This document shows, one piece after another, positions 9,611 to 50,959 of a stretch of DNA of 51,241 bases. This DNA comes from Saprospiraceae bacterium (GTDB lineage Bacteria; Bacteroidota; Bacteroidia; Chitinophagales; Saprospiraceae): the NCBI GenBank assembly GCA_020848995.1, contig JADLHA010000012.1, forward strand, positions 1 to 51,241. The letters are read 5' to 3'. The position numbers and the translations under genes are program-made. Numbering within the stretch: position 1 is the first letter of the stretch; the number at the start of each line of letters is the position of its first letter. Under the pieces are notes generated by a model. The model worked only from the letters and a program-made list of their open reading frames with translations, was not told the DNA's origin and ran no database searches.

Positions 9611-9651
9611 TTACGTACGTTCGTTAGGAAGTTAACGAACGTACGTTTTTT
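9611..9651. terminator. Strong hairpin terminator made of two inverted motif copies
   Basis: A perfect 14-bp stem (9613-9626 with 9633-9646) with a 6-nt loop is followed by a T run on the plus strand. It lies between two converging genes (plus stop 9585, minus stop 9689). The two arms are copies of the ACGTACGTTCGTTAG motif found throughout the window. Confidence 0.8.
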
Positions 9652-9688
9652 ATTTCCGGGATCCTGTTCGGGTTGATGCTGCCGGAAA

Positions 9689-10432
9689 TCAATAGTAGCT
9701 GAAGTGCTGTGTGGCCGACAGATTCAAGTCGATGAAGGTGCGCACCGTGGCGATGCGGCCTCCGGAGTCGTAGTCGTATTCGTAGCGATAGGTGACCGAC
9801 TGGTTGGCGGAGTGGTCGGTACGGACGACCTGAGTGTTGACGTTTGCGGAGGATTTTCCGAGGTAGGCTTGCCCTTGGGCGGCATGTCCAAGGCTGTTGG
9901 GGTGCCCCGTGTCATACGCGTTGGCCTGGCTGTAATCGAGACTTCCGTTGTGGCCGTAGGAATAAGAAGCCACTTCGTTACCGCCGGTGTATGAGTGTAC
10001 ATGCCGGCTCACCAGCGCATTGCCGCCGTCGTATTCGCGCAGCTCCACGCGGTATCCGTCGCCGTCGTAGCTAACGCCGGTCAGCAGTTGGCCGTCGCTG
10101 CGGGCCGAAGAGTCGACGAGGCCGGTCGTGCCGAGGAAGTAGGTCACCTCGGAATACAGGAAGGGGCCGGAGTAACTGCGCTCGATGATCTGACCGCTGA
10201 GGTATTCCAGAGTAATGCTGTCGCCCGAGCTGAACAGGCTGCGCGTCAACCGTCGCTGGCCGTCGTAAAAGTAGTTGACCGTCAGATCCGGCGTTCCGGA
10301 TTGTTCGAAGCCGATGACCTGTGTTTTGACGAGGGCCACGTCGCCGGATGGCGGGTCGGGGTCGTCGTCTTTGGAACAAGAAAGTGCAAGGAGGCAGCTC
10401 CCGGCAAGAAGAAGGTTAAATGCATTTTTCAT
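9689..10432 (-). CDS. Putative lipoprotein with YD/RHS-like strands (DUF4595-like)
   Basis: 247 aa from ATG 10432. The frame is open 56 codons further upstream, but only this start gives a proper lipoprotein signal: 'MKNAFNLLLAGSCLLALSC' followed by SKDDD, with Cys 19 as lipidation site. An acidic stretch after the Cys is typical of lipoproteins sent to the cell surface in Bacteroidota. The rest is rich in Tyr, Gly and Asp with alternating strands ('YFYDGQRRLTRSL', 'YEYDYDSGGRIATV') that resemble YD/RHS units and the Bacteroidota DUF4595 group. It is probably an outer-membrane lipoprotein of unknown role. It appears to be a single-gene unit with its own promoter. Confidence 0.7.
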   Translation of the reverse strand: MKNAFNLLLAGSCLLALSCSKDDDPDPPSGDVALVKTQVIGFEQSGTPDLTVNYFYDGQRRLTRSLFSSGDSITLEYLSGQIIERSYSGPFLYSEVTYFLGTTGLVDSSARSDGQLLTGVSYDGDGYRVELREYDGGNALVSRHVHSYTGGNEVASYSYGHNGSLDYSQANAYDTGHPNSLGHAAQGQAYLGKSSANVNTQVVRTDHSANQSVTYRYEYDYDSGGRIATVRTFIDLNLSATQHFSYY

Positions 10433-10490
10433 TTTGTTTGGTTTTGTATAAAAGGATTGACCCCTGAATCGGTCAGTGGCCCTTCTCCTA

Positions 10491-10520
10491 TAAAGATACT
10501 TCTTTCCAAAGTTCCGGCAA
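10491..10520 (-). promoter_or_regulatory. Promoter of the DUF4595-like lipoprotein
   Basis: On the minus strand, TTG (10520-10518) is followed after 19 nt by TATCTTTA (10498-10491), one base off the TAnnTTTG consensus. The predicted leader is about 50 nt. This is one of only two sites in the window where both the -33 and -7 elements have good spacing. Confidence 0.5.
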
Positions 10521-10682
10521 CACTGCACATGCAATTTAGGCAGGATTTTGAAGCATCCACCCAACGGTTTCAGCAACGGCGATGAATGTTCCCCGGCCAT
10601 TTGCGGGATGTTGCTTTGGATGATTCTATTGATTTACGATACTGCCTTTGAAAGTCGCTGCACTGCGAACCTGAGGTATTCT

Positions 10683-11994: not shown

Positions 11995-12062
11995 GCTGGC
12001 TTCGGCTCCGCTGGCTTCGGCTCCGCTGGCTTCGACTCCGCTGGCTTCGACTCCGCTCAGCC
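11995..12062. repeat. Four copies of a 15-bp tandem repeat
   Basis: GCTGGCTTCGGCTCC occurs twice (11995-12024), then a variant with one G-to-A change twice (12025-12054), plus a partial unit. It lies between the unknown 403-aa gene and tRNA-Phe and is followed by a CA-rich tract (about 12100-12125). No spacers are present, so it is not a CRISPR. No gene is evident over it. Confidence 0.85.
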
Positions 12063-12137
12063 AGCGGTGTAAAATGCCACTTCGTGTGGCTTTCTCCTTA
12101 CACACACACACTCACACTCACACCCATGCCGGATTCG

Positions 12138-12210
<73 letters not shown>

Positions 12211-12473: not shown

Positions 12474-12476
12474 GAG

Positions 12477-13280
12477 ATGCCTTCGCGTCGATTGCAAACG
12501 CTTTGCGCGCTGATCTTCCTGCTTTGTCTTTGGCTGACTGACAAACAGGAGGAATCCAGTCTGTGGGTGCTCCTCCCCGCCGGTGCCCTGGTGGTGGCGA
12601 GTTTTATCCTGGGCGATTTGGTCAACGCCTGGTGGTTTAAAAGGCATCCGCCGGAGCTCAGCTCCTACGAGAAAGCCTGGCTGGATCGCTTTGCCCCCTA
12701 TGTTGCCCGGCTTGATCCAGATGCCAGGAAACGGGCGGAGGCTGGTCTTGCGCGCGACCTGATCGAGAAAGAATTTATCCACATGGGGGAGCAGGACATT
12801 CCGGGGGAATGGAAGCTCATGGCCTTGGCACCGGCAGCCTACCTCAGTGTCGGTTTTGACAACCCCAAGGCCCGCCGGTACAGCCGCATCGTTTTTTACA
12901 ACCACCCTTTCCCGAGTCCAAACCAGGACTACCTGCACATTTCGGAAACCGAGCACGACGACGGGGTGATCATCCTGGCGATACCCCAACTAGAAGCTGC
13001 CCACCATCAGGCCTCCGCCCATTTCAACATCGCACTCTACCAGTGGGGGGAGGTCTTTACGCAGATTTACCCGCCGCCGGCAGACTGGTCGCAACAAGAT
13101 TCAGACCTCGTCGCCCGTTGCTGCGAGACCCTGGGCACAACGGAACCCGCACTTTGTAAATATCTCGGCCAGCCAGCGCTGCTCCCCGGTGCTCTCGCCG
13201 TTTACTGCGCGGTGTTGCATCCGGGAGTACTCAAATTTGCCGACCACTATGTTGCCCAATACAAAAAAAACGATCGTTAG
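12477..13280 (+). CDS. MtfA-like (M90-like) membrane protein lacking the HExxH zinc motif
   Basis: 267 aa. Two hydrophobic segments (about 6-20 and 29-48) precede a domain that resembles MtfA/peptidase M90: 'RKRAEAGLARDLIEKEFIHMG', 'WKLMALAPAAYLSVGF' and 'RYSRIVFYNHPF' correspond in order to the family's N-terminal blocks. Where the family has its 'HEFAH' zinc motif this protein reads 'NIALYQWGEVF', so it is predicted not to be a peptidase of that type. E. coli MtfA binds the regulator Mlc; a binding-only role here is inference. The start is ATG 12477 rather than TTG 12471 because the promoter element overlaps the latter. The gene ends in a copy of the CGTTAGTATA palindrome and overlaps the DUF547 gene. 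Confidence 0.6.
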   Translation: MPSRRLQTLCALIFLLCLWLTDKQEESSLWVLLPAGALVVASFILGDLVNAWWFKRHPPELSSYEKAWLDRFAPYVARLDPDARKRAEAGLARDLIEKEFIHMGEQDIPGEWKLMALAPAAYLSVGFDNPKARRYSRIVFYNHPFPSPNQDYLHISETEHDDGVIILAIPQLEAAHHQASAHFNIALYQWGEVFTQIYPPPADWSQQDSDLVARCCETLGTTEPALCKYLGQPALLPGALAVYCAVLHPGVLKFADHYVAQYKKNDR

Positions 13281-14028
13281 TATAAAATTTTCCTCTTTGA
13301 AAACGCAGGCACTGATCCTCCTACTTTCTTTCGCGCTGGAGGCAGTTGCCCAGGTTCCCAAACATGAGAAGTGGGACGTCCTTTTGCGTGAGCATGTCCG
13401 CAACGACGGATGGGTCAACTACGGTGGATTTACCCGCGACAGCACCCGTCTAAAGAATTACCTCGACGGCCTTTCCAGGCAAATACCCCAGACGAATTGG
13501 TCAAAAGAGGATGCCATGGCCTACTGGATCAACGCATACAATGCCTATACGGTACTGCTGATCCTGCGCCATCCGGGAATCCAAAGCATCAAAGACATTG
13601 CCTCCCCTACCGTGAAAACCGGCAGCCCCTGGGACCTGCCATTTATCAGGCTCGAAGGAAGGCCCTACACACTCAATGCACTGGAGCACGACATTTTGAG
13701 AAAGCAATTCCCCGATCCACGGATCCATGCGGTGCTGGTTTGTGCGGCCCGCTCCTGCCCACGTCTGCACAACCGGGCCTACACTGGTGCCCGGCTGGAT
13801 GAACAACTCACGGCGCAAAGCCGCAGTTTTCTTGCAGACCCCTTTCGCAATGTCATCGGCAAACGCAAGGCCCGTCTTTCCAAGATTTTCCAATGGTACG
13901 CTGCAGATTTCGGAGCAGAAAATGGCGTCAAGCTGTTTCTGAAGCACTACGGCCCCGTATCCATCCCTGCAAAGGGGTATTCCATCCGCTATTTGGAATA
14001 CGACTGGTCGCTGAACGGCGATTTTTAA
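13249..14028 (+). CDS. Secreted DUF547-domain protein
   Basis: 259 aa from ATG 13249, which overlaps the previous gene by 32 bp. An in-frame TTG at 13297 would give a cleaner signal peptide ('MKTQALILLLSFALEAVAQ') and no overlap, so the true start is uncertain. The mature part carries the DUF547 signatures 'AYWINAYNAYTVLLIL' and 'DPRIHAVLVCAARSCPRL' followed by 'AYTGARLDEQL'. The family's function is not established; the conserved Cys, His and Arg residues suggest an enzyme-like pocket. Export to the periplasm is predicted. It is probably co-transcribed with the MtfA-like gene. Confidence 0.8.
   Translation: MLPNTKKTIVSIKFSSLKTQALILLLSFALEAVAQVPKHEKWDVLLREHVRNDGWVNYGGFTRDSTRLKNYLDGLSRQIPQTNWSKEDAMAYWINAYNAYTVLLILRHPGIQSIKDIASPTVKTGSPWDLPFIRLEGRPYTLNALEHDILRKQFPDPRIHAVLVCAARSCPRLHNRAYTGARLDEQLTAQSRSFLADPFRNVIGKRKARLSKIFQWYAADFGAENGVKLFLKHYGPVSIPAKGYSIRYLEYDWSLNGDF
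13269..13284. repeat. Dispersed palindrome copy, end of MtfA-like gene
   Basis: AACGATCGTTAGTATA; the first ten bases are a perfect palindrome. It overlaps the stop codon (TAG) of the MtfA-like gene and lies inside the overlap with the next gene. Confidence 0.6.
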
Positions 14029-14162: not shown

Positions 14163-16628
14163 TCATCGCTTGATCATCGCCTGTTGCAGGTGGTGGTCGC
14201 CATCGGTGATGCGAAGCCAATATTGACCGGGTGGCAAATCTGCAACGTCCACTGACCAGGTGCCCCGTGGGTCGAGATGGTCCTTATGCATTGCCGTCCT
14301 TCCGAATACATCGAATATGAACAACTCCGCATGATTCCAGTCGTTGCGAGTGGTCTCGATCAGCAGTACATCATCAACCGGATTGGGATATATGGCCAGA
14401 TCCGGTCTGTTGTATGATTGATGGCGGCGAATGTCTGAAGTCTGATGCTCCGAACCTGAATAAACTGAAATCGTCCTTCCCTCAGGGTTAATTTGCAAGG
14501 ATTCCGGATCCAGCATGCGCAGTTGGCCGATTTGTTCCCGCCGAAATGACCCTCCCGAAGGCAGCGTGGTAAACCATCCGCTGACCACAGCAGAATGATA
14601 GCTGGCACACCTGCTCTTCACCTGATAATGGCTCAGCGCATTGGCTGCCAATCCATCGAACAGGTGTTCGTTGCCTGGTCCGCTTGCGTTTTCCCAGTTG
14701 CTCCACGGACCCCAGACACCAGGAGAAACTTCCTGTCTTATTCGCAATTGGGAAAGCGTCGCGCATAAGCCCTCGTCCCATCCTGCGCGCGCTGAAATTT
14801 CGGTTACATCATAATGATGAACGCTGGTCGGAGTTCCGCATTCGTAAGGGGCTACCGTCACTTTTTGGGTGCAACTCCGCTTATTGTTGGACAGGTCAGT
14901 AATCGTCCACTTGACGAGGGTGACGCCAACCGGATAAACAGCAGGAGCGTTGTTCGAAGGAGGTCCGTACAGTCCGCAATTGTCGGAAGTTACCGGGTTG
15001 CCAAGGGATAGTTCGTCATTATCCATTTCGCACATGCCCTCTCCTGTCTGAACCGAAATGTTCGGAGGACAGCTCATCGCCGGCTTTTCCAGATCATTTA
15101 CCTGAACGGTAAAATTGCAGTAGACCGTTTCACATGAATTTTCGGCCTTAATACTAACGTTCGTAAGTCCCTTATTCAGGGGTACCTGGCTGCCCGTTCC
15201 TACACCGGAGGCCATGGTCGCTCCGGTAAACAGGTATGACATATCGGGTTGTGGGGTTCCCGTCGCCGAAGCGAGGTAATTGAGGACTCTGCTGCATGTA
15301 CTGGGATCGGTACTCACGGTTGTTGGAGCGGGGCAATCGGTGAAGGCCGGTGGCGCGCAGAGCGGGTTGTTGTACACCCTTGCTTGTCCGGAGTTGGTCC
15401 CTCCTGCATCACTTTCAGGTGCCCCGATGACCATTGTAGTTCCGTCATCCGACATACCGAGCGAAAATCCTGAAGCATCGCCCCAGGCTTCGCCGTCAAT
15501 ATCTGCTCCGACCTGACCCCAGGTGCCTCCTTCCCATTTAAATACCCGGACGTGTCCTGCGCCTATGGCAGAACCATCGTTTTTAGGGGCTCCAATGGCA
15601 ACGCGCGTACCATCGTCGCTGAGGGCAACCGCGTATCCACTTTCGTCGCTAAAGGCTTCACCATCGATGTCACCGCCCATTTGTGTCCAGCTTCCACTTG
15701 CGTATTCGTACACGCGCACATGACCCTTGTATCCCAGGTTGTGGGGGGCTCCAACAGCCAACCGGTTGCCATCTCCGGAAAGAGCAACAGCGCTTCCGAA
15801 CCAATCAGTCTCCGCTTCGCCCTCTATTCCCTGGCCCTTTTGTATCCAATTTCCACCTACCATTGAAAAAACGCGCACTTTGCCCTTCCCATTTGGGCCT
15901 TTATAGGGAGCCCCCGCCGCAAAGGTCAATCCGTCATCCGAGCATGCTACGGATTGTCCAAAGTATTCTGCTGCGCTTTCTCCAGGGACATCCAGTCCCA
16001 ACTGCACCCATGCTCCGTTGCTAAACTGATATGCCCTGACGGCTCCTACACTTGCTCCCCATGAAGCTCCCGGAGCTCCTGCCACAAATGTGCCTCCATC
16101 ATTGGAAATGGCGATCGACCTTCCGAAATAGTCAAATCCGGTTTTACCGTCGATGTTGCTGCCCATCTTTACCCAGTTCCCGTTTACATATTGGAAGACG
16201 CGCACGCGGCCCATCCTGTTTTGGATGGCCGTACAGGATGGGGATCCGATCGCTACGATGTTACCATCGTAGGAGAGGGAAACTGCACCGCCCGAGCCTT
16301 CAATGTCAGAGTCGCCGTCAATGGCGTTGCCATAATTTGTCCAGGCCCCATTCTGCCATTTGTAGATTTTCACTCTTCCCCGTTCAAATCCACCGGCGTG
16401 TTCGCCTGGAATTCCCACAGCAACGACGCTTCCGTCGCCTGAAATAGCACTTGCAATACCGAGTTGTACCCAAGCTGGCGATCCTTCGATATCACCACCC
16501 ATTTGAGTCCACTGTGAAGACACTCTGTCCGTTGTGAGTGCCATCAGTGCCATCAGTGCGATGATCCAATACAAAGCGGACAACAACTGCTTTGCCAACA
16601 TTTTTTGAGTCAACAGATCCTGTAACAT
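14163..16628 (-). CDS. FG-GAP propeller / HYR protein with T9SS sorting domain
   Basis: 821 aa. The N-terminal signal ends near residue 39 (VSSQ); M10 is an alternative start. Seven repeats of about 55 aa follow (about 40-430), each with 'W.QMG.DIDG', 'S.DG..VA.GAP' and 'G.VRV' motifs, as in FG-GAP/integrin-alpha-like beta-propellers. Next come a HYR-type pair (about 445-620; 'CPPNISVQTGEGMC', 'VTLVKWTITDLSNN'), a fibronectin-like stretch ('HYDVTEISARAGWDEGLCATLSQLRIR') and a Por sorting domain in the last 78 residues ('LAIYPNPVDDVLLIE...LPPGQYWLRI'). Outer-surface location through T9SS is expected; a role in adhesion is inference. A copy of the dispersed palindrome (15152-15168) lies within the HYR coding region in frame. 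Confidence 0.9.
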   Translation of the reverse strand: MLQDLLTQKMLAKQLLSALYWIIALMALMALTTDRVSSQWTQMGGDIEGSPAWVQLGIASAISGDGSVVAVGIPGEHAGGFERGRVKIYKWQNGAWTNYGNAIDGDSDIEGSGGAVSLSYDGNIVAIGSPSCTAIQNRMGRVRVFQYVNGNWVKMGSNIDGKTGFDYFGRSIAISNDGGTFVAGAPGASWGASVGAVRAYQFSNGAWVQLGLDVPGESAAEYFGQSVACSDDGLTFAAGAPYKGPNGKGKVRVFSMVGGNWIQKGQGIEGEAETDWFGSAVALSGDGNRLAVGAPHNLGYKGHVRVYEYASGSWTQMGGDIDGEAFSDESGYAVALSDDGTRVAIGAPKNDGSAIGAGHVRVFKWEGGTWGQVGADIDGEAWGDASGFSLGMSDDGTTMVIGAPESDAGGTNSGQARVYNNPLCAPPAFTDCPAPTTVSTDPSTCSRVLNYLASATGTPQPDMSYLFTGATMASGVGTGSQVPLNKGLTNVSIKAENSCETVYCNFTVQVNDLEKPAMSCPPNISVQTGEGMCEMDNDELSLGNPVTSDNCGLYGPPSNNAPAVYPVGVTLVKWTITDLSNNKRSCTQKVTVAPYECGTPTSVHHYDVTEISARAGWDEGLCATLSQLRIRQEVSPGVWGPWSNWENASGPGNEHLFDGLAANALSHYQVKSRCASYHSAVVSGWFTTLPSGGSFRREQIGQLRMLDPESLQINPEGRTISVYSGSEHQTSDIRRHQSYNRPDLAIYPNPVDDVLLIETTRNDWNHAELFIFDVFGRTAMHKDHLDPRGTWSVDVADLPPGQYWLRITDGDHHLQQAMIKR
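15152..15168. repeat. Dispersed palindrome copy in FG-GAP/HYR gene
   Basis: TACTAACGTTCGTAAGT on the plus strand; inside coding sequence, in frame (LTNVSI). Confidence 0.55.
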
Positions 16629-20188: not shown

Positions 20189-23100
20189 TCAGAGGTTGCT
20201 CCGTTGGAGAAATCCGCCAAACCTGAACCTCCGACTTAAAGGTACAAATACTTCGATGCGCGTACCCTTGCCAGAATGTGCGTCGATCCGGATGTGACCC
20301 TTGATCCGGGAGATCCTCCTCTCCATATTGCGAAGCCCATATCCCTGATCGCCACTGGGGGCGTGGCGAGGATCTGCCGATTTGAAACCCGAACCATCGT
20401 CTTCGATCACCATTTCGAGTTGCCTTCTGCGGCAAAAAAATTGTACGCGAATGTTGCTGGCACCGGCATATTTGGCGGCGTTGGCGAGGGCCTCGTTGAA
20501 AACGGCGTTGAGCTGGTAGCGGATTTCTCCAGTCAACGCGAGCTCATCCCGGCATTCCGGTGCAGACAGTTCAAACCTTAGGGATTCGGGTAACAACTGG
20601 GTAGCATCGGCGCGGAGTTTTTCTGTAAAAGACGAAAAGCGATCACATTCCGGGTCCATGGCCCAGATCAGCCTCCGCATGTTGGCTACAATCCCTTTAG
20701 CTGTCCCGGCGAGCTGGTCCAGTTTTTCTGCAGTTGCCTGTCCGCGCTGGCACATTTCCTGTGCGGCGATGGCGATGGCGGTCAGCCGTGCACCCAGGTC
20801 GTCGTGCAGGTTTTCGTACAGGCGCAAGCGGACCGTTTGCAGGGCAAATTTGCGCGAGAGTGCGAGGTACACAAACGAGGCGACGATCAGTACGGCGGTG
20901 ATGAAGGTGAGGGCCATGAACCACAGCGTTTTCCAGAAGGGGGGGCGAATGTGGAAATCTATGGCGCGCCATTGAGCACCCAGCACTCCGTCGGAATTGC
21001 GTGCCATCCATTCCAGGCGGTAAGTTCCCGGCTGGAGGGCGGGATAGCGCAACAGACTTCCCGCCTGAGCTTCGAGCCAGGCGTCGTCGATGCCAATCAA
21101 GCGGTAGCGAACCCCCGTCGAAGGCGGATGGCTGTACTCCAGTGAGCCGAGGCTCATGGAAATGGTATTTTCGCGGTAGCTCAGGTTCAACGACTCCAGG
21201 TTTTCGAGGCTGATGCAAGCCTGGGGCAGTGTTGCCGGCCGGTCGTTGATGAGCAGGCTGGCAAGTTGGGGTTTGGCCTGCACGTCGAGGTCCCGGATGT
21301 TGTTGGGATGAAAGCGGACGATGGCATTCCGGGTTCCCAACCACAGGCTGCCGTCGTGCAGACGTGCAGCGGCCCCGTCCATAAATTCATAGGAGGGCAA
21401 TCCGTCGGCGAGGCCATACACCCGGCAGTTTCCTGAGTGCGGATCAAAGGAGGCAAGTTCGTTGCCGGCCGCGACCCACAGCTTGCCGGCGGCATCGGCT
21501 ACCATGGCCGACGCACCTCTTCCCACCCATTTTACAGGCGCGGGCTCCAGGGTTTCCGGATCAAAACCCCGTAACCCTGAATGCGATGCCACCCATATTA
21601 ACGAACGTTCGTTAGCTTGGTAAATGCCATTTACGAGCCCCTGTGCGTAGAGCGTATCTAAGATCATTAGGGTTGCGGTGTCGACGACGAACCACCGGCG
21701 GGTCTCCTCGTTGCACCAAAGCCTTCCCCGGGCGTCGAGAAAAAGGGGTAAGTATTCTGATCCTGCAGGCAATGCGGAAATGGGCCGATGTGTCCATCCC
21801 CCGGCTGGCGACCTGGAAAAAAGGTAAACGCCACCTCCGCGACGGCTGCACGCAAGCCTGCCATCTGCAAAACAGGCTGCGCTCAGGACGACGAAACCTT
21901 CAGGGGTGACCTGCTCTGGTGGGCTCAATCCCGGGCCAGCCCGGAAAAGGCCCTTCCAGGTCATCACCCAGATCGATCCCGCCAGGTCAACCTGGATTCC
22001 GATGCAGGCCCGGGGAATGAATCTGCGCATTTCGTCGAAGCGGGGATGATCTGTTGCCAGTCTTCCATCTGGGTGAAAAAGGTAGACGCCACCGGATGAC
22101 GTGGTGACCCATACCGTACCATCGGCCGCCTCGACCATACCGTTGGGGGAGAAGTCCGGGTTGGGCAATCCCTGGGGTGCTGTGGGCATGACCAGGTCAA
22201 ACTTCCTCTTGCGGGGATGGCCATAACTCAGCAAATAGCCGTCGGCGTTAGCCCACAGCGTTCCGTCGCTGTCCATCGACATCGACTGAATGTTGCCATG
22301 GTGCAAGCGGTGAGGCTGTGTGGGGTCAGGCCATTGCGGGTTGAATCGGTGGCCAGAGCGTTTATGCATTTCCCATATCCCGCTGTCGGCAATGGCAACC
22401 AGCAGGGTGGAGTCCGAATAATCGACCAGGTCGTAAGCGTTGCAGGGGAATTTGCCCACGGGCGTTCCCGGTACAGATGCAAAGGCATACAGCGCATTTC
22501 GGGTGGCAATCCAGACCCGGTTCGTGCGGTCGCTGATCACCGAACGTGGTTCTCCAAGCGCATTGCCGTTTTCGTCTGTTAACGAACAAACGTTTGTTCG
22601 TTTTTTCTGATGGTAGCCAATGCACTGCACGCCGGGGGCGTCCATGCGGTAGCACAACAGGACTCCATCGGTGGGTGACCCGCGAACCCGGTGTGCGAAC
22701 TGGGTGCCGGTAGGAACGGGTGTCAGGCTGTCGAAAATTCCCGTGCCCAGGTTGAGGGCAAAAAGCTGCTGGTCTCCTGCAAGGACCCACAGCCGGGAAT
22801 CCTCCAGGTGGATGGCCCTGTAGCCTTTCACCGGTGTTCCGGCGCTGTCGGCCAACACGTGGTTGCGAAAACTTCCGCATCGCCAGTCGTAGACGTTGAC
22901 GGCGTCGAAAGTAGTAAACCAGATGTTGCCTGCGGAATCTTCGAAAAACGTACTTTGGACGTTTTCCCCTGCGAGGCCATCCGGCTTTTCAGGATCGGGG
23001 AGAAAGACCTCCACCCTTTGCCCATCGAAGCGGTTCAGCCCGTTGACCGAGCTGATCCACACGAAGCCCCGGCGGTCTTTGTAGACGTACCAGTTGGATG

Positions 23101-23611: not shown

Positions 23612-23665
23612 GGCATATTTGCCGTCGCCGTCACCCTTCCGGGTACCGCAGCGAAGGAGGAACGC

Positions 23666-23677
23666 ACTAACGTTAGT
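23666..23677. repeat. Dispersed palindrome copy before the anti-sigma stop
   Basis: ACTAACGTTAGT, a perfect 12-bp palindrome in the 148-bp spacer just past the stop (23682) of the TPR-tailed membrane protein. Confidence 0.6.
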
Positions 23678-23681
23678 TAGT

Positions 23682-24599
23682 TCATTTCGGTTCGCTCCCG
23701 GCAGCCGTTTTTGGGATGTGGCTACGCAGGGAGCGGAGCAGTTGAGGAGCCTGAGGAAACTGGGTGCTGTCGAGTTGCATAAGTGCCTGGGACGCTTGTT
23801 GGGTTTGCCCCATCGCAAGGCGGGTCAAAGCATGGTACCAACGCGCGGGAACGAGGTATCTCGATTGCCCCCGGCTGAGGATGCCTTCCAGCAGCTTGTG
23901 GGCTTCGTCATATCTCGAAAGGGCCATCAAGGCATTGGCGCGTACAAAAAGGCAATTGTCGTTTTGCCGGAGATTGAGCTCCATGGAATCATAGGTGATC
24001 ATTGCCTCGCGATACGCGCCCTTGCGGTAGTGCTGCAACATGCGGTCGTACACTTCGAGCGACGAGCGGCCGCGCAGGTTGAGTTCCATGGTGTGGTCGG
24101 TATAAGGCACGAAATGTGCTGCAAACAACTCGCTTTCCGGCCGTGTACTCTTTCCGGACTTCAGTTTATGGGGCTTTTCCGGTTTCTGGGTTTTTGAGCT
24201 ATCGCGTGGAAGCAGTTCTGTTTCCGGCAATGCCGAAGTGTCTTGCGTTGGAGCTGGCGGTGCCGGAATCCTCGATTCCGGAAGAACCTTTGTTGGGGCA
24301 CCGGGCCTGTAAGCCAACCAGGCAAGGAGTCCGCAAATCGCAACAAGGACGAGAAGCATCCACCCATAGCGCCCATACGGGAGGGGATTCCGGTCATCCC
24401 CGGAATCCAGCGCACGCAGTCGCTCCCGCAACTCCTGGGCGCCAAGTTTGCCTGCCAGTTCGGTAGCTTTCCGGTAGCGGCCCAGCTCAGCGCTCAGTTC
24501 TGCATCCGCCTTGAGTTCGCGTTCAAATGCTTGCCGTTCCACCGGATCCATTTGATCCAGGAGGTAGCGCTCGATCCGTGCCATGGCCTGCTCGTTCAT
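23682..24599 (-). CDS. Putative anti-sigma-type membrane protein with TPR-like C-terminal part
   Basis: 305 aa from ATG 24599, which overlaps the sigma-factor stop by 4 bp (ATGA). The frame is open further upstream, but only this start fits the overlap. Residues 1-75 ('MARIERYLLDQMDPVERQAFERELKADAELSAELGRYR') resemble the cytoplasmic end of anti-sigma proteins but lack the HxxxCxxC zinc motif. One membrane helix (about 80-97) follows, then a Pro/Lys-rich linker and an exported part with two or three tetratricopeptide-like units ('YDRMLQHYRKGAYREAMITYDSMEL', 'LFVRANALMALSRYDEAHKLLEGIL'). The design suggests that the outer part senses or recruits a partner and the inner part holds the sigma factor; that is inference from gene order and topology. 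Confidence 0.65.
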   Translation of the reverse strand: MNEQAMARIERYLLDQMDPVERQAFERELKADAELSAELGRYRKATELAGKLGAQELRERLRALDSGDDRNPLPYGRYGWMLLVLVAICGLLAWLAYRPGAPTKVLPESRIPAPPAPTQDTSALPETELLPRDSSKTQKPEKPHKLKSGKSTRPESELFAAHFVPYTDHTMELNLRGRSSLEVYDRMLQHYRKGAYREAMITYDSMELNLRQNDNCLFVRANALMALSRYDEAHKLLEGILSRGQSRYLVPARWYHALTRLAMGQTQQASQALMQLDSTQFPQAPQLLRSLRSHIPKTAAGSEPK

Positions 24600-26908: not shown

Positions 26909-29362
26909 ATGCGATATACCGTTGCCGAACTCGGTACCCTCTTTTCCTGCGATACTTACGAACGTTCGTTCGCTTCCTACACCGTAGAGCATGCAGAGAC
27001 AGACAGTCGTTCGGTGTTGCATCCTGCAACGACGGTTTTTTTTGCCTTGCGCGGAAGGCGTTTCAACGGGGAGGACTTCATTCCCCAGCTTGCCGGGGAA
27101 GGGGTGCGGGTGTTTGTCGTCGATTCACAATGTGCGCTGAACCTCCCCGACGCATGCCTGCTGCGGGTACCCTCGGTGCTCGACGCGCTGCAAGACCTGG
27201 CCATACACCATCGCAAACAATACCAGATTCCCGTAGTGGGCATCACCGGCAGCAACGGAAAAACCATCGTCAAGGAATGGCTGTACACCCTGCTGCGCGA
27301 GCGTTACAGGGTGTGCAAAAATCCAAAGTCCTACAACTCCCAGCTTGGGGTGGCCATTTCGGTGCTCGAACTCGATCACAGCCATGACATCGCCCTGTTT
27401 GAGGCAGGGATCAGCCAGACCGGAGAAATGGATCGTCTCCGCGAGATGATACAGCCAACCCACGGGTTGATCACCAACCTGGGGGATGCACACCAGGCAG
27501 GATTCTCCAGCCCCGATGCCAAAGCCCAGGAGAAAATGCAGCTTTTCCGGGATGCCGCCAACTTTATTTACCGAAAAGATTACGCGTCCATTGACGCCAT
27601 GGCCACGCTGCATGGCGGCGGAATCAGCTGGTCTCAAAAGCTGGATGCCGGTTACACCATTGACCGTCTGCACAAAAAGCCGCATGGCCTTTCCGTTTGG
27701 TTGCGCCGCGGCAACGCAATTCATTCTTTTGACTTCCCCTTTGAAGACGAGGCCTCCCTGGAAAATGGAATGCATTGTATTGTTGCATCGCTTGAACTGG
27801 GCCTGAGCGCGGAAGAAATACAACGGGGCCTGAGGCAACTGCACGCCCTGCGCATGCGCCTCGAGCAGAAAGAGGGCCTCCGCGGTTGTCTGCTCATCAA
27901 CGACAGCTACAGCCTTGACCTCAAGTCGCTCCAGCTCGCCCTGCAGTTTGTCGACCAGCAAAACCAGTCAATGCCGCGCACCCTGGTGGTCAGCGATTTT
28001 GCCGGACAGCAGGCTGACGACGGATTGCCGGAGGGCGTGGCACAACTCGCCGTGAAATATCAGGTGCAAAAACTCATCGCAGTCGGCCCCCTGATGGCGC
28101 AATTGAGAAAAGTACTCGACCCAAAAATTGCATTTCGCCATTTTCCCGATCCGGAAGCGTTGCTGGCCCACGCCGATGCTTTGGGCCTGCACGACGAACT
28201 CGTCCTGATCAAAGGGGCCCGACATTTCCGGCTCGAGCGCTTCTTTGATGCCCTCAGCCTTTCGCAGCATGACACCACGCTCGAAATTGACCTCAAAGCG
28301 GTTGCACACAACCTGGCATGTTACCGTTCGCTGGCCGGGCATGGGGTAAAGTGCATGGCCGTGGTCAAGGCTGCTGCATATGGCAGTGGACATTACGAGA
28401 TCGCCCGTCTGCTCGAATTTCATGGCGTCGATTACCTGGCGGTAGCTTATCCGGACGAAGGCATAGCTCTCCGGCAAAAGGGAATCCGGCTACCCATTCT
28501 CGTGCTGAATCCCGGTGGGGTCGATTTCAACCGGATGGCAGAATACCGTCTCGAGCCCGAGGTATATTCGATTCGCCAGTTGCTGCGGCTGCTGGAGGAG
28601 ACCGGAGGTGATGGCATCGCCGGGATCCACATCAAATTCGATACCGGCATGCACCGCCTTGGTTTTGGCGAGGGCGACCTGGCGGAGCTGGCCTCCCTGC
28701 TTTCGCAGAACCCCCGGCTGGAAGTTCGGTCCCTATTTTCCCATCTGGCTGCATCTGACCGGTCCGAACACGACGCATTCACCCACCGGCAGGCAAGCGC
28801 CTTTGAAGCGATGTCGTCGACAATACAAGACGTTCTTCCCCGACCAGCGCTGCGACACCTGCTCAACAGCGGTGGCCTGGCGAGGCACCCCCAGTATGCT
28901 TACGATATGGTCCGGCTGGGGATCGGCCTCTACGGGTTCGATGCGGATCCCGGTGTGGCGCGACGCCTGGAGAAGGTGCACAGCCTGAAAACCCGCATCG
29001 CGCAGGTTAAAAGCATCGATGCCGGTGAAACGGTGAGCTACAACCGCTCTGGTAAATTGGCGGCAGCGGGCAAGATCGGCGTACTGAGCATCGGTTACGC
29101 CGACGGGTTGCCGCGACAGGCCGGGGAAGCAGCCTGGCCGGTCTGGATCAACCGGCGGCGCGCTCCCCTGGTGGGAAATGTCTGTATGGACCTGTGCATG
29201 GTCGATCTGAGTGGGATCGAACACTGTACAGAAGGTATGGAAGTCGAAGTATTTGGCAAAAATGCTCCGCTCGAGATGCTGGCTGAGGCTACCGGTACCA
29301 TCCCCTATGAAATTTTATGCCGCATCTCCGGTCGGGTGAAGCGCATTTTCCTGCAGGACTGA
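26909..29362 (+). CDS. murF-alr: Bifunctional MurF / alanine racemase fusion
   Basis: 817 aa. The N-terminal half (1 to about 445) is a MurF-type ligase that adds D-Ala-D-Ala to the UDP-MurNAc-tripeptide: P-loop 'GITGSNGKT', 'NPKSYNSQLGV' and 'INDSYSLDLKSLQLAL'. The C-terminal half (about 450-817) is a PLP alanine racemase: 'LEIDLKAVAHNL', PLP-lysine segment 'VKAAAYGSGHYEIARLL', 'HIKFDTGMHRLGF', 'RLGIGLYG', catalytic-Tyr region 'VSYNRSGKL' and 'LSIGYADGLPR'. The fusion is known in Bacteroidota; it couples D-Ala supply to its use in wall precursor synthesis. A 12-bp palindrome of the dispersed family lies in codons 17-21 (26958-26969). Confidence 0.95.
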   Translation: MRYTVAELGTLFSCDTYERSFASYTVEHAETDSRSVLHPATTVFFALRGRRFNGEDFIPQLAGEGVRVFVVDSQCALNLPDACLLRVPSVLDALQDLAIHHRKQYQIPVVGITGSNGKTIVKEWLYTLLRERYRVCKNPKSYNSQLGVAISVLELDHSHDIALFEAGISQTGEMDRLREMIQPTHGLITNLGDAHQAGFSSPDAKAQEKMQLFRDAANFIYRKDYASIDAMATLHGGGISWSQKLDAGYTIDRLHKKPHGLSVWLRRGNAIHSFDFPFEDEASLENGMHCIVASLELGLSAEEIQRGLRQLHALRMRLEQKEGLRGCLLINDSYSLDLKSLQLALQFVDQQNQSMPRTLVVSDFAGQQADDGLPEGVAQLAVKYQVQKLIAVGPLMAQLRKVLDPKIAFRHFPDPEALLAHADALGLHDELVLIKGARHFRLERFFDALSLSQHDTTLEIDLKAVAHNLACYRSLAGHGVKCMAVVKAAAYGSGHYEIARLLEFHGVDYLAVAYPDEGIALRQKGIRLPILVLNPGGVDFNRMAEYRLEPEVYSIRQLLRLLEETGGDGIAGIHIKFDTGMHRLGFGEGDLAELASLLSQNPRLEVRSLFSHLAASDRSEHDAFTHRQASAFEAMSSTIQDVLPRPALRHLLNSGGLARHPQYAYDMVRLGIGLYGFDADPGVARRLEKVHSLKTRIAQVKSIDAGETVSYNRSGKLAAAGKIGVLSIGYADGLPRQAGEAAWPVWINRRRAPLVGNVCMDLCMVDLSGIEHCTEGMEVEVFGKNAPLEMLAEATGTIPYEILCRISGRVKRIFLQD
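26956..26970. repeat. Dispersed palindrome copy in murF-alr
   Basis: TTACGAACGTTCGTT; ACGAACGTTCGT (26958-26969) is a perfect palindrome in codons 17-21 (YERSF). Confidence 0.65.
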
Positions 29363-33704: not shown

Positions 33705-33739
33705 CCTTCTGAAGGAGCAGCACCCCCATCTGCATCGAT

Positions 33740-33762
33740 ACTTACGTACGTTTGTTAGTATA
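33740..33762. repeat. Dispersed palindrome copy between surA and lpxK
   Basis: ACTTACGTACG then TTTGTTAGTATA in the 77-bp gap between converging genes; the only hairpin-capable sequence there, so it may serve as their terminator. Confidence 0.6.
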
Positions 33763-44985: not shown

Positions 44986-45172
44986 AGGGCACTTCTAAAA
45001 ACCCCCTGCTGCGCCAGCCAGCCCGCTTAGGCCCACGCGCTCAATGAATTTAGCTTTACAATACTTCGTTGCAGCTCAGTCAGTTATAGTTCCACATAGC
45101 TTTCTTCGCTGCGCCTCGTCTTGTTTTGCTAAATCCATTCTGGCATCAAAATGGAGTTTTTAGAAGTGCCCT
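44986..45172. mobile_element. 187-bp element with 17-bp terminal inverted repeats (MITE-like)
   Basis: AGGGCACTTCTAAAAAC (44986-45002) is perfectly inverted at 45156-45172. The 150 bp between hold no ORF. It fills most of the 332-bp gap between nadD and dps. Flanking target duplication is at most a few bases (TAA/TAA-like) and unclear. It could be a non-autonomous remnant of an insertion sequence or a large imperfect terminator. A similar arm occurs at 19428-19445. Confidence 0.6.
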
Positions 45173-45218
45173 AAAGCATCGTTTTTCAAAACAAACAATC
45201 CATTAAATCTACACGAAA

Positions 45219-45695
45219 ATGAACCCATTGAACGAAATCGGACTTGATAGCAAAAAATCTGCAGCCCTTGCTCAAAAACTCAACGAGCTGCTGGCCAATT
45301 ATTCCATTTTCTATCAGAATGCCCGGGGCTACCACTGGAACATCAAAGGCGAAAAATTTTTCGAGCTTCACCTCAAATTTGAAGAATTGTACACAGATCT
45401 CCTGGTAAAAATAGACGAAGTGGCCGAACGCATCCTCACCCTGGGCCATACGCCGCAACACAATTATTCCGAATATAAAAAACTCTCCACGGTACCGGAA
45501 AGTGCTCAGGTTTCGGATGGAAAAAAAGCCGTGGGCGAAATTCTCAACGCTTTCCGCAACGTCATCGGACTCCAGCGCGAGATCCTCTCCAATGCAGCAG
45601 ACCTCGGCGATGAGGGCACCAATGCCCTGATGAGCGATTACATCCGTGCCCAGGAGAAAATGGTATGGATGTATTCGGCTTACCTCAAATCCTGA
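45219..45695 (+). CDS. dps: Dps family DNA-binding ferritin-like protein
   Basis: 158 aa, typical. It forms a 12-mer that oxidises and stores iron and protects DNA in starvation or oxidative stress. Ferroxidase-site residues are seen in 'YHWNIKGEKFFELHLKFEELYTDLLVKIDEVAERI' blocks (His at the start, His/Asp/Glu further on). The N-terminal tail is short and not strongly basic, so DNA binding may be weak. Single gene; no clear TAnnTTTG upstream. Confidence 0.94.
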   Translation: MNPLNEIGLDSKKSAALAQKLNELLANYSIFYQNARGYHWNIKGEKFFELHLKFEELYTDLLVKIDEVAERILTLGHTPQHNYSEYKKLSTVPESAQVSDGKKAVGEILNAFRNVIGLQREILSNAADLGDEGTNALMSDYIRAQEKMVWMYSAYLKS

Positions 45696-46197
45696 TCGTT
45701 TGCGCACCGCAGAATACCAGATCTTCGCTGAAAGAAAACGGGAAACGCTGACAAAGAGCTTAGTTGCTTGTGATATTAACGTTTGTTAGTATAGGGTGTT
45801 GATTGAGGGGCATTCCTGAATAAGGACTTCACACAGGCTTCCTTCAGTAAACATTAAAGGGATACCCAAGAATGACCCAGGTTTTTAAGATTGGGGGGCA
45901 GTTTGCACATCACCTCTTTTACTCTGCACATGAAGGTGGTGTGTAAATTCGTGAAGCTCCCTTCCTTTTAGAATTTCGGGCTTTCGACGGGAGGGTTCAT
46001 AAAAACCCAACAATATGTAATCTAACAATGCATGCTGTGCATGTTATAAGCGAGTGCATGTTTGTATCCCTTCGCCAACCAGGTGTTCATCCAAAGAGCT
46101 GGTAGGATTGAATGGATTTGCTGCCAGGGTATGGTTCATGTATGCCAACTTGACGTACATTCGCAACATGCGTTTCACAAAGTAATCCATACTCATT
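45696..46197. other. 502-bp spacer between dps and the Gfo/Idh/MocA gene
   Basis: No convincing ORF. It contains a copy of the dispersed motif (45775-45793), a small hairpin-like ATGCA...TGCAT stretch near 46028-46042 with repeated TGCATGTT words, and TACATTCG (46156-46163), one base off the -7 consensus, about 35 bp before ATG 46198. Confidence 0.5.
45775..45793. repeat. Dispersed palindrome copy after dps
   Basis: ATTAACGTTTGTTAGTATA, about 80 bp past the dps stop. Confidence 0.55.
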
Positions 46198-47580: not shown

Positions 47581-47592
47581 GCACAAACGCCG

Positions 47593-47600: not shown

Positions 47601-47604
47601 CAGG

Positions 47605-48621
47605 ATGTCTTTATCCACGAAATTGCGCGGTTGCCGGATACATCCCTTGCTGATTCCCGGATTACTAACGTTCGTTAGTATCCTTTTGGGTTGTGGGGGA
47701 GGCGGCAGCTCCGAAGCTCCGCAGACCCACCTGCAGCAGGTAGAAGCAGCCATTGCCGCCAAGCCAAATGACGATTCGTTGTACCATGCCTACGCCGTTC
47801 TGCTCAGTGAAGCCGGCCGTCACGACGAAGCCGGAGAAGCCCTGCTGAGGGCTCTTGCCATCGATTCGACCCGCAATCCCGAATACCACATTGCACTGTC
47901 GCAGGCCTACCTGATGCAGGCGGAATCGCGAAAAGCACTGGACGCCATTGACGCAGCGCTTCGCCTGTTCCCCAATCACATTCCTTCGCTGCTCGAGGCC
48001 GCCCGTCTCCGCCTCATCCTGCAGCAACACATCCCTGCCATGGCCCTGCTCGACAAGGTTTTTCTCCGCGACCCGATGCAGCCTGATGCCTGGTACCTCG
48101 CGGGCCACCTCTTTTTGGAAATGGGCGATACGGCCCGCGCCGTGAATGCCTATCAAAAGGCTGTCGACTCCAATCCGGAAATGCGCAATGCCTGGAAGCA
48201 GCTGGGAGATGTGCTCACTGCCCTGCAGATCGAACGCGCGATATCCTATTACGATAACGCCCTGCGTCTCGACAGCACAGAACCCGAACTCTACCACAAC
48301 AAAGCCTACGCCTTAAACCGCTTTGGCCGAAAGACCGACGCCATCGAGCTTTTCCGCCAGCTGTGCAGCCGGTTTCCGTCTTATGAACCTGGGTTTTACC
48401 ATCTGGCCCTGCTGCTGGCTGAGAGCGATTCTACGGAGGCCGCAATTGAACATTTTGGAATTGCCATCCGCCTGAACCCTTCTGAAGCCGGCAGCTACCT
48501 CCAGCGCGCCAAGGCCCTTCAAAAGATCGGAGATCGCCCCGGCGCCGTGGCAGATCTCGAAACGGCCCTCCGACTCGACCCCGGTCTCGAAGAGGCCCGG
48601 GCACTGTTAAAGTCCCGGTAA
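47605..48621 (+). CDS. TPR-repeat lipoprotein
   Basis: 338 aa. Lipobox 'SILLGC' with Cys at about residue 30, then a Gly/Ser linker and seven or so tetratricopeptide repeats (about 45-335; 'DDSLYHAYAVLLSEAGRHDEAGEALLRALAID', 'PDAWYLAGHLFLEMGDTARAVNAYQKAVD', 'AEAGSYLQRAKALQKIGDRPGAVADLETALRL'-like units). It should be a membrane-anchored protein-binding scaffold; in this phylum such proteins may serve gliding/T9SS or outer-membrane assembly, but no partner is shown. A palindrome of the dispersed family (47662-47680) falls in frame inside the signal peptide codons. Confidence 0.88.
   Translation: MSLSTKLRGCRIHPLLIPGLLTFVSILLGCGGGGSSEAPQTHLQQVEAAIAAKPNDDSLYHAYAVLLSEAGRHDEAGEALLRALAIDSTRNPEYHIALSQAYLMQAESRKALDAIDAALRLFPNHIPSLLEAARLRLILQQHIPAMALLDKVFLRDPMQPDAWYLAGHLFLEMGDTARAVNAYQKAVDSNPEMRNAWKQLGDVLTALQIERAISYYDNALRLDSTEPELYHNKAYALNRFGRKTDAIELFRQLCSRFPSYEPGFYHLALLLAESDSTEAAIEHFGIAIRLNPSEAGSYLQRAKALQKIGDRPGAVADLETALRLDPGLEEARALLKSR
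47662..47680. repeat. Dispersed palindrome copy in TPR lipoprotein signal peptide
   Basis: TTACTAACGTTCGTTAGTA: TACTAACG and CGTTAGTA form an 8-bp inverted repeat around TT; encodes LTFVSI in the hydrophobic core of the signal peptide. Confidence 0.65.
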
Positions 48622-48705
48622 GTGCGCGCCGGAGATTTTATGGTCCGGTTTACCGGTGAACCGAAAACTTAATTCCGCTTTTCCGGGTTAGTATTAGAAG
48701 TTATC

Positions 48706-48939
48706 ATGAAATCCACTGAAAAAAAATCAACCACCATGAGCGTACTGAAAGTCATTGAAATCATGTCTTCCTCCAAAAAATCCTGGGAGGATGCTGCCGA
48801 ATCCGGTGTGGCCAAAGCATCGATGACCTTAAAAAACATCCGTTCGGCCTGGGTTCAGGACCAGTCGGTTACCGTTGAAAAAGGCAAGATCAAGGAATAC
48901 CGCGTTACCCTGAAGTTGTCCTTCGAACTCGAAAAGTAA
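48706..48939 (+). CDS. Dodecin (flavin-binding storage protein)
   Basis: 77 aa from ATG 48706, or 67 aa from ATG 48736, which fits the family start 'MSVLKVIEIMSSSKKSWEDAA' (shown in two pieces: MSVLKVIEIM, SSSKKSWEDAA). The conserved 'SWEDA', 'A..TL.NIRSAWV..Q' (flavin-stacking Trp) and 'EYRVTLKLSFELE' follow. Dodecins form hollow 12-mers that bind flavin and protect from light or redox damage. Upstream (48688-48697) is a half-copy, GTTAGTATTA, of the dispersed motif. Confidence 0.93.
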   Translation: MKSTEKKSTTMSVLKVIEIMSSSKKSWEDAAESGVAKASMTLKNIRSAWVQDQSVTVEKGKIKEYRVTLKLSFELEK

Positions 48940-49017
48940 GCCGGGCCCATATCCTTTATCGATTTGCATACCCACATCTGGTATAAGCCGGATGTAAGGC
49001 TTGTTTTTTCAAATCAC

Positions 49018-49025
49018 TACCTTTG
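49018..49025 (+). promoter_or_regulatory. -7 element directly before thrS (leaderless)
   Basis: TACCTTTG matches TAnnTTTG and ends five bases before ATG 49031. It predicts a leaderless mRNA and argues against the upstream in-frame TTG at 49001 as start. Confidence 0.5.
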
Positions 49026-49030
49026 CCCCT

Positions 49031-50959
49031 ATGGATAGCATTCAAATCAGCTTTCCCGACGGCAGAAAGCAGGACTTTCCCAAAGGCGTTTCGGCGCTGG
49101 AAGTCGCTAAAACGATCAGCGAGGGTCTTGCCCGCAATGTCCTCGCCGCCAAAATCAACGGGGAGGTCGTCGATGCGTTCCGTCCGATCCAAAATGATGC
49201 CGCCCTGCAGTTGCTCACCTGGAATGACCCGGAGGGGAAGTCAACTTTCTGGCACAGCTCGGCACACCTGATGGCCGAAGCGCTTGAGAGCCTGTACCCA
49301 GGTATCAAATTTGGCATTGGCCCTCCCATCGAAAGCGGTTTTTATTACGACGTCGATACCGGCGACCGCGTGCTCACTGCAGCAGACCTGTCTGTCATCG
49401 AACAGAAAATGATGGAACTGGCCCGGCTCAACAAGGCGTATATGCGCCGGGAAGTAAGTAAAGCCGACGCCCTGCATTATTTTTCAGAAAAGGGGGACGA
49501 ATACAAAGTAGAGCTCATTGGGGAGCTCGAGGATGGCTCCATCACGTTTTACGAGCAGGGCAATTTCACGGACCTCTGCAAGGGGCCCCACATACCAGAA
49601 ACGGGCCACATTAAAGCCGTCAAGCTGACCTCTCTGGCCGGAGCCTACTGGCGAGGCGATGAGAAGCGAAAACAGCTCACGCGCATCTACGGCATTACCT
49701 TTCCCAAAGCCAAAGAACTCGAAGAACACCTTCGGCTGCTCGAGGAGGCGCGCAAGCGAGACCACCGGAAGCTCGGTCAGGAATTGGAGCTCTTCATGTT
49801 CAGCGAAAAAGTCGGTGCAGGCTTGCCGATATGGCTTCCAAGAGGAACGGCCCTGCGTCAGCGCCTCGAAGATTTTCTCAAGGCCGAGCAGATCCGTAGG
49901 GGATACACGCCCGTTATCACACCGCACATCGCCCACACCCATCTCTACAAAACCAGCGGCCACCTCGAAAAATATGGTGAGGATTCCTTTCAGCCGATCT
50001 CGACGCCCCGCGAGGGCGAGGAGTTTTTCCTCAAACCAATGAATTGCCCGCACCACTGCGAGATTTACGCACACAAACCGAGGTCCTACAGGGACCTGCC
50101 CGTGCGCATTGCCGAATTTGGCACCGTTTACCGCTACGAACAAAGCGGGGAGTTGCACGGACTAACGCGCGTTCGTTCGTTTACACAGGACGATGCGCAC
50201 ATTTTCTGTACCCCCGATCAGGTCAAAGGAGAATTCCTCAACGCCCTTGATTTGACCATGATGGTCATTCACAAACTGGGGTTTGATCATTTTACCGCGC
50301 AGATCTCTTTGCGGGATCCCGCTCATGCAGAGAAGTACATCGGATCTGAAGAAAACTGGATCAAGGCAGAGCAGGCGATCATCGATGCGGTGCAAGAGGC
50401 CGGACTCGAAACGACAACCGTTTTGGGCGAAGCGGCCTTTTATGGACCCAAGCTCGATTTCATGGTGCGCGATGCGCTGGGTCGCTCCTGGCAACTCGGA
50501 ACCATCCAGGTTGATTACAATCTACCTGAGCGCTTTCAACTCGACTACATTGGTGCGGACAATTCCCGCCACCGGCCGGTTATGATACATCGGGCGCCTT
50601 TTGGTTCGATGGAGCGCTTTATTGGTGTGCTCACCGAGCATTGTGCCGGAAAATTTCCTCTCTGGCTGGCTCCCGAACAATACGCCATCTTGCCGGTCAG
50701 CGACAAATTTCTCGATTATGCTGAATCCCTTTTTAAGCAACTTGATAAAGCCGCCCTACGCGGCAACATAGACCGTCGTGTAGAATCCATTGGCAAAAAA
50801 ATCAGGGACGCCGAACTGAAAAAGGTCCCGTTCATGCTCATTGTCGGAGAAAAGGAACGCGATCAGAACACGGTTTCTGTCCGGCGTCAGGGCGAGGGTG
50901 ACCAGGGCAGCATGACTGCGGAAGCATTCATAAACCTGATCCGGGAAGGCTCCAACTGA
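49031..50959 (+). CDS. thrS: Threonine-tRNA ligase
   Basis: 642 aa from ATG 49031 (the frame is open from TTG 49001, which overlaps the promoter). It charges tRNA-Thr. Domains: TGS (about 1-60, '[23 protein letters not shown]'-type), editing SAD domain with the HxxxH pair in '[11 protein letters not shown]', class II core with motif-1 region, '[10 protein letters not shown]' (Cys ligand of the active-site zinc), motif 2 'FRYEQ'-equivalent '[26 protein letters not shown]', motif 3 '[13 protein letters not shown]', and the anticodon-binding domain ('[21 protein letters not shown]'). All catalytic blocks are intact. A degenerate palindrome (50161-50180) sits in the motif 2 region. Confidence 0.97.
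50161..50180. repeat. Degenerate dispersed palindrome copy in thrS
   Basis: ACTAACGCGCGTTCGTTCGT encodes the conserved LTRVRSF segment, so this copy may be chance codon choice. Confidence 0.35.

Follow-up and report, generated by a model that had tools for sequence, protein, structure and literature searches.

Dispersed palindromes at the 3' ends of genes are known from REP elements. Noc, a nucleoid-occlusion factor of the ParB family, is described as having about 70 sites with a 14-bp palindrome, and SlmA, a nucleoid-occlusion factor of the TetR family, as having 24-52 palindromic sites in Escherichia coli (PMC4726725). RefZ is described as a TetR protein that tunes septum placement in Bacillus subtilis (PMC6657595) and, like SlmA, serves as a precedent for TetR proteins in nucleoid work (PMC4726725, PMC3573117, PMC6657595). 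For PaaR (TTHA0973) of Thermus thermophilus, a TetR protein that represses phenylacetate genes, a selected consensus, AACnAACGTTnGTT, and an older consensus from two promoters, CNAACGNNCGTTNG, are reported (PMC6651687). The present analysis concerns a family of short palindromes in a stretch of 51,241 nucleotides from a Saprospiraceae bacterium (assembly GCA_020848995.1, contig JADLHA010000012.1, positions 1 to 51,241), called the window hereafter. The window is contig 12 of a genome of 3.14 Mb in 52 unordered contigs (G000), which is compared with that of its sister species (G006) and with those of the congeners G001-G005, G007, and G008. The palindromes are numerous, are kept by selection, and resemble the PaaR operator. 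It stands at about an even chance that they are operators of the PaaR type, and that in the TetR protein T2 of G000 a repressor of catabolic genes has been co-opted as an architectural protein of the whole chromosome.

Number of the palindromic sites

The preliminary description of the window had claimed a family of dispersed palindromes at 13 positions, and the existence of this family is confirmed by the counts. Within the window, TAACGAACGTTCGTTA with up to three mismatches occurs 7 times (0.10 expected) and ACGTTCGTTA occurs 5 times (0.03 expected). The sites were modeled by a symmetric 22-bp matrix, roughly TACTWACGAACGTTCGTWAGTA, and any score above 13.5 bits was taken as a site, which gives 12 sites in the window. 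The matrix was built on 258,522 bases, with two training contigs chosen for holding a perfect site; segment L242 and contigs C6 and C40 were picked because each holds one. The comparison with a Markov model, proposed in the preliminary description, gives 131 sites in the 1,024,268 bases of G000 that were sampled (1.02 Mb), against 2, 2, and 2 in three third-order Markov sequences. The training DNA holds 38 of the 131 sites, while the remaining 93 come from 765,746 out-of-sample bases, and the total extrapolates to about 400 sites genome-wide. In the whole genome, searching with up to two mismatches gives 106 matches, compared with 1 when the reversed pattern is used as control.

Among 396 genomes sampled from the order, enrichment is seen only in G000 (106) and G006 (126). 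None of the other 394 genomes has more than 5 matches, reversed-pattern controls giving 0-13, and seven further congeners have 0-3 matches each. A congener-specific dialect of the palindrome was considered and rejected, given that palindrome scans of 34-60 kb each of G001-G005 and G007 gave no comparable family. Viral spread of the sites was also rejected, the viral contigs giving 0 exact 20-mer matches. The GC content is 53% in the sampled stretches of G000 and G006 and 34-48% in congeners placed in the same genus.

The sites of the window, being palindromes without an assigned strand, are listed here with the strand of the genes in or near which they lie:

9608..9629, site, 21.7 bits; convergent gap; paired with the next site at a distance of 22 bp; 20/22 identical in G006, flanks 70%
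9630..9651, site, 20.7 bits; second of the 9608/9630 pair
13261..13282, site, 15.8 bits (26.2 in G006); 3' end of the open reading frame 12492-13280(+)
15148..15169, site, 20.3 bits; within the HYR/FG-GAP gene 14163-16601(-); 22/22 identical in G006, flanks 90%
21596..21617, site, 29.6 bits; perfect 16-bp palindrome within the histidine-kinase gene 20189-23212(-); unaligned to G006
22581..22602, site, 27.4 bits; within the same histidine-kinase gene, 20189-23212(-); symmetric two-base change in G006, palindrome kept
23661..23682, site, 22.5 bits; 10 bp past the stop of 23682-24599(-)
26953..26974, site, 28.6 bits; near the start of murF-alr, 26909-29362(+); 22/22 identical in G006
33739..33760, site, 26.0 bits; convergent gap
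45770..45791, site, 16.2 bits; 85 bp past the stop of 45219-45695(+)
47659..47680, site, 24.7 bits; contains an ACTAAC-N4-GTTAGT unit; first codons of 47647-48621(+)
50160..50181, matrix match, 20.5 bits; codes for the ThrS peptide GLTRVRSF

Eleven of the 13 positions first described therefore hold matrix sites, and two, 25313 and 48688, do not. The position given as 9611 is in fact the pair at 9608 and 9630, and the weak one at 50161 (20.5 bits) is possibly coincidental, because the ThrS peptide GLTRVRSF is conserved and is also present in G007. The reported tendency of the core to be followed by TATA is no separate feature, since AGTA is the end of the palindrome; of 28 such cases, TA comes next in 4.

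Structure of the sites and match to the PaaR operator

The core of the matrix, WACnAACGTTnGTW, equals the selected consensus of PaaR TTHA0973, AACnAACGTTnGTT, and overlaps CNAACGNNCGTTNG. At each of the 131 sites, the best fit is a unit ACKAAC-N4-GTTMGT placed 2 bp off the matrix centre on one side, and this single unit fits CNAACGNNCGTTNG. The two reported PaaR consensuses would then look like the double and single forms of one unit. In 53 of the 131 sites, versus 5/37, both placements are occupied, which gives two units at a distance of 4 bp; part of this excess is a bias, since the symmetric form served as the seed of the matrix. Scored directly, with at least 11 of 12 positions matching, the unit occurs 128 times versus 2 in the control.

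Sites are also grouped in arrays. For strong non-coding sites (segment edges included), a neighbour above 6 bits is found at 14-24 bp in 20 of 56 cases, where 0.5 are expected, and for coding sites in 3 of 53. Spacings of 14, 18-19, and 22-23 bp are the commonest, and an array has up to four sites. The two arms of the palindrome vary nearly independently: in 64 distinct sites, the paired counts are near the independent expectation, with a slight excess at positions 0, 3, and 7 (28 versus 20.6, 31 versus 25.4, and 31 versus 26.6). This fits a dimer reading two half-sites rather than an RNA hairpin, which was rejected since clear arm covariation was not found.

Of 199 genomes of the family, 150 have T2-like proteins (E 1e-6 or better), some of which are recognized by the DNA-binding half only. 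The 38 best-ranked T2-like loci outside G000 and G006, of 2.5-3.9 kb each, were examined. A site above 12 bits lies near the T2-like gene in 16 of 18 loci (0.6 expected) and, in a second batch, in 15 of 20 (1.15 expected). Among the controls, such a site is found in 0 of 11 other TetR loci and in 5 of 72 congener segments not chosen by motif. The TetR control set was at first of 12 loci, from which L245 of G004, which also has no site, was removed as a T2 orthologue; the loci L243 and L244 of T1, another TetR protein, have a nearby site and were excluded. The congener segments were at first 82 (8 above 12 bits and 2 above 18), including two G004 stretches fetched by motif, without which the counts are 5/72 and 0/72. 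The top dyad found de novo in the 38 loci is ACGAA-N6-TTCGT, present in 19 of them where 0.17 are expected. Eight neighbour genes were scanned at seven T2-like loci, of which five are paaE-like, two are PaaA_PaaC, and one is AMP-binding. At several T2-like loci, the site lies at the start of a paa-type gene or immediately before it, as expected of an operator. At the level of sequence, these comparisons establish a link between this motif and PaaR-type regulators. For a HIP1-like repeat or a methylation target, both among the options of the preliminary description, no positive evidence was found in this analysis, by which methylation itself could not be assessed, and the sequence matches a TetR operator instead.

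Conservation of the sites

The sites of G000 and G006 were compared over 258 kb, where 33 of 38 sites align and 5 have no aligned G006 sequence; long aligned blocks of the window are 82-91% identical. The neutral test was restricted to the 26 aligned sites above 16 bits. The 12 intergenic ones have a mean of 23.5 bits in G000 and 23.9 in G006, compared with 9.3 in the neutral simulation. In G006, 11 of the 12 intergenic sites are kept (4.0 under neutrality), as are 12 of the 14 coding sites (7.1 under neutrality). Synonymous changes are fewer in coding cores (8/61) than in the flanks (310/1080; p 0.004). It is clear that the site family is under selection and kept against neutral drift.

When sites above 18 bits in either species are considered, 23 of 26 are common to G000 and G006. 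The orthologue alignment suggested in the preliminary description gives a uniform result for the unshared ones, all three of which differ by ungapped substitutions; insertion was not seen. The 23661 site illustrates this: through ungapped substitutions, it scores 2.6 bits in G006 when read in register, and the best score nearby is 12.0. The MurF-Alr site, which lies in a variable protein segment, is likewise ungapped with respect to the G004, G007, and G008 proteins. The tiny mobile element first considered is thus disfavoured, both by the three ungapped sites of 26 and by the MurF-Alr alignment.

The same holds for a REP sequence of a RAYT, also among the options first listed, since a different palindrome flanks the main RAYT of G000. 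This gene (C27:18109) has GGCGCAAGTT/AACTTGCGCC on its flanks, and in its locus of 3.2 kb the matrix gives no hit above 9 bits; G000 has a second, weak PF01797 match at C4:48621, and the comparison of palindromes covers the main RAYT. The main RAYT locus of G006 carries another palindrome as well, and a REP/RAYT origin was rejected. A mobile or structural repeat in general, whether REP-like, a tiny palindromic element, or an RNA hairpin or terminator, would account for the palindromic form, for the 3'-end position that recalls REP, and for the one likely terminator made of two sites (9608-9651). Nonetheless, given the lack of covariation between the arms, the ungapped state of the three unshared sites of 26, and the other palindromes at the main RAYT of G000, such an origin is barely credible. 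Read from its sequence, the family is one of protein-binding sites, and neither of hairpins nor of mobile elements.

Several other repeats were observed. RAYT-type genes (PF01797) with their own flanking palindromes were noted at L185 (1152-1204), L186 (2030-2089), and L173 (305-1360); the palindromes read GGCGCAAGTT-TGT-AACTTGCGCC in G000 and G006 and CGTAGGC-N3-GCCTACG in G008, where the palindrome scan found CGTAGGC repeats clustered by a RAYT. The RAYT loci of the genus look like REP-RAYT systems with changing dialects, as far as their sequences suggest. In the window, a repeat of about 190 bp at 44985-45175 has about 70 more matches in G006, which are often arranged in tandem at intervals of about 148 bp. 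A 15-bp tandem repeat, GCTGGCTTCGACTCC, with 4.2 copies, lies at 11995-12057 and 12138-12210 beside a minus-strand tRNA gene, and short repeats matching 12035-12070 recur many times in G006. A CRISPR-like array (L147) with a repeat of about 32 bp or more and a period of about 75 bp is found in G000 at C6, around 10,700-11,400.

Position of the sites relative to genes

With gene boundaries taken from a simple in-house open reading frame caller, the density of sites per 10 kb is 14.8 in convergent gaps (n = 28), 4.7 in tandem gaps (n = 26), and 0.79 in coding DNA (n = 70), 7 sites being at segment edges. The divergent gaps (37,051 bases; 107 gaps of 30 bp or longer) hold 0 sites, against about 18 predicted from the mean intergenic rate, or fewer if each array is counted once. 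The pattern holds for the out-of-sample sites, with 20 convergent, 19 tandem, 47 coding, and 0 divergent. This avoidance of divergent promoters, the arrays, and the link to PaaR were found here and were absent from the preliminary description.

An ordinary global regulator, for which the sites would be the operators of a large regulon, is in agreement with the fact that PaaR-type proteins are repressors, and some tandem clusters (7 of 24) lie within 60 bp of a start codon. However, these 7 are not above chance (9.8), and a regulon is made quite improbable by the divergent gaps being empty over 37 kb where about 18 sites are expected. The same emptiness, together with the lower density of coding DNA, would be compatible with molecular drive similar to that of DNA-uptake sequences, by which a motif accumulates where it is tolerated, without function at each site. 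The MurF-Alr site in a variable protein segment and the presence of sites in only two sister species point in this direction. DNA-uptake sequences occur about once per kb, whereas the density here, about 1 per 8 kb, is lower; moreover, the arrays have defined spacing, and the motif matches both a known TetR operator and the sites by T2 homologues, which makes molecular drive very improbable.

Tandem sites are nearer the end of the upstream gene, with 20 of 26 in the first half of the gap (p 0.006). A stop codon is found at no more than 60 bp from the site cluster in 19 of 21 convergent cases (15.0 expected, p 0.005) and in 14 of the 24 tandem ones (9.8 expected, p 0.03), while among coding sites no clear effect of the position within the gene was found. 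These observations bring in the main rival explanation, a roadblock at gene ends, in which T2 clusters past stop codons would halt transcriptional read-through, above all between convergent genes. The high density in convergent gaps and the clusters near stops are what such roadblocks would give, and the 9608 and 9630 sites together form an inverted repeat that is followed by six T, as a hairpin with its T-run. Nonetheless, intrinsic terminators are not depleted in gaps with a site (2/17 versus 9/53, p 1.0), and T-runs occur next to intergenic sites at the background level (12 of 54 versus 19%), for which reason a terminator role was itself rejected. In addition, of the 70 convergent gaps that measure 30-400 bp, only 17 have a site, and 70 of the 131 sites are intragenic. 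A boundary roadblock is therefore considered unlikely.

The TetR protein T2

Over the limit of the family search, G000 and G006 have four TetR proteins each and the congeners 0-2. Among the matches listed for T2-like proteins in the family, the genus is represented by G000, G006, and G002; the other congeners were covered by the TetR search and by a PaaR profile, with which L247 of G007 also scored (58.8 bits). T2, one of the four, carries TetR_C_24, and it is encoded outside the window:

G000:C32:53346-53903, minus strand, T2, TetR gene (locus L252)

Both its TetR_N (PF00440, 55.5 bits) and TetR_C_24 (PF17932, 47.1 bits) domains are over the cut-off, and the homologues suggest that TetR_C_24 is a mark of PaaR. 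Next to T2 are a gene for a glycosyltransferase and, by reading alone, genes that resemble rpsT, atpI, and bactofilin. T2 lies away from paa genes, the two PaaA_PaaC genes of G000 being at C40:86652-88607. It is under purifying selection, with 44 synonymous and 9 nonsynonymous codon changes. The DNA-reading residues R25, S37, Y39, H41, and K45, identical in 38/38 homologues, are kept in T2, and the changes W103N, R118L, and Y121L, in both species, occur at positions that are also identical in 38/38 homologues. W103, R118, and Y121 appear to serve effector binding and, with these effector-domain residues lost, T2 would bind without the usual metabolic signal. That T2 itself binds the sites is probable, and that it does so independently of a ligand is somewhat favoured.

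T1 of G000 and G006 (L243, L244) is BetI-like, and a matrix site lies at the 3' end of the gene after it. In G004, L245 is a probable T2 orthologue with a similar neighbourhood, 36.8% identity, and clade support of 100/99, and it keeps R118.

Proposed role of the sites

It is proposed that the palindromes are read by a dimer of a PaaR-type TetR protein, T2 being the most likely binder. Each site would contain one ACKAAC-N4-GTTMGT unit, or two shifted by 4 bp and hence two dimers. On about 400 sites and their arrays, T2 could assemble into nucleoprotein clusters, set at intervals, by which the nucleoid would be organised or marked. These clusters might instead report the position of the nucleoid to machinery such as that of cell division, in the manner of SlmA or RefZ. 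Promoters would be avoided because T2 clusters there would silence them. An architectural or nucleoid-related role of T2 is about evenly balanced with its absence; a nucleoid or segregation protein site had been listed in the preliminary description, and it is the option favoured by the data. It is also conceivable, although held with less than even confidence, that a catabolic TetR protein has become a chromosome-organising or nucleoid-occlusion protein, with about 400 operators arising by point substitution after the split from G004.

Several observations weigh against this proposal. G004 has 1 dispersed site in 420 kb, against 1-5 in controls, and the 3.1-kb locus of L245 has no matrix hit above 7 bits. 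A gradual build-up of sites, predicted for G004 from its T2 orthologue, was therefore not found, and the gene alone is not enough, given that a probable orthologue is present without dispersed sites; T2-like TetR proteins are also common in the family without site dispersal. T2 itself departs from its homologues at 7 positions of the DNA-binding head that are well conserved (11, 17, 21, 27, 31, 38, and 47), T1 also has sites close by, and T2 scores 63.9 bits with the NCBIfam RefZ model (cut-off 180) and 23.4 bits with SlmA NF007015 (cut-off 120). The 38 homologue loci are related by descent and are thus not independent events. Amino-acid changes are also fewer in coding cores, with 3/65 versus 180/1289 in the flanks, so that protein constraint may add to the conservation of coding sites, and the ThrS site was counted among these in the comparison of cores and flanks. 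The intragenic location of 70 of the 131 sites and the near-random dispersion per 20 kb (p 0.08) are further points of this kind.

By what route a transcription factor of local action turns into a chromosome protein of global reach is still an open question, for which SlmA and RefZ are examples with a remote ancestral state. Here, one family holds PaaR-like regulators with sites by paa genes, a probable orthologue of T2 in a congener that lacks dispersed sites, and two sister species with about 400 sites by estimate. The steps, namely protein change, sites born by substitution, doubling, array growth, and exclusion from promoters, are thus testable. If the proposal is true, it would describe a nucleoid-position system of Bacteroidota with the before-and-after states of protein and sites in one family. 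Among the open-access papers listed by searches on a nucleoid-occlusion factor of Bacteroidetes, on PaaR in Bacteroidetes, and on palindromes of Saprospiraceae, none describes such a system in its title or the opening of its abstract.

Comparison with known systems

The sites share with REP/BIME sequences and their RAYT the dispersed palindromes at gene 3' ends, and differ from them in that insertion was not seen, the arms do not covary, and the main RAYT of G000 has its own palindrome. Noc is similar in its dispersed palindromes and in the large nucleoprotein complexes, which are proposed for T2, but it belongs to a protein family unrelated to that of T2. RefZ has a handful of sites near the origin, whereas the putative T2 sites are spread over the sampled contigs, and T2 is below the RefZ cut-off of 180. 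SlmA, which binds FtsZ and blocks assembly of the Z ring, and whose sites are depleted near the terminus, is also of the TetR family, with many dispersed palindromic sites and possibly paired dimers; T2 differs in reaching only 23.4 bits against the model cut-off of 120, and G000 has more sites. PaaR/TTHA0973 has an operator consensus that the dispersed sites match and would share with T2 the combination of TetR_N and TetR_C_24, which a scan found in T2, and T2 shares the main DNA-reading residues with the PaaR-like homologues of the family. T2 differs in that W103, R118, and Y121 are replaced, in that it is not beside paa genes, and in that about 400 dispersed sites, by extrapolation, stand in place of a few promoters.

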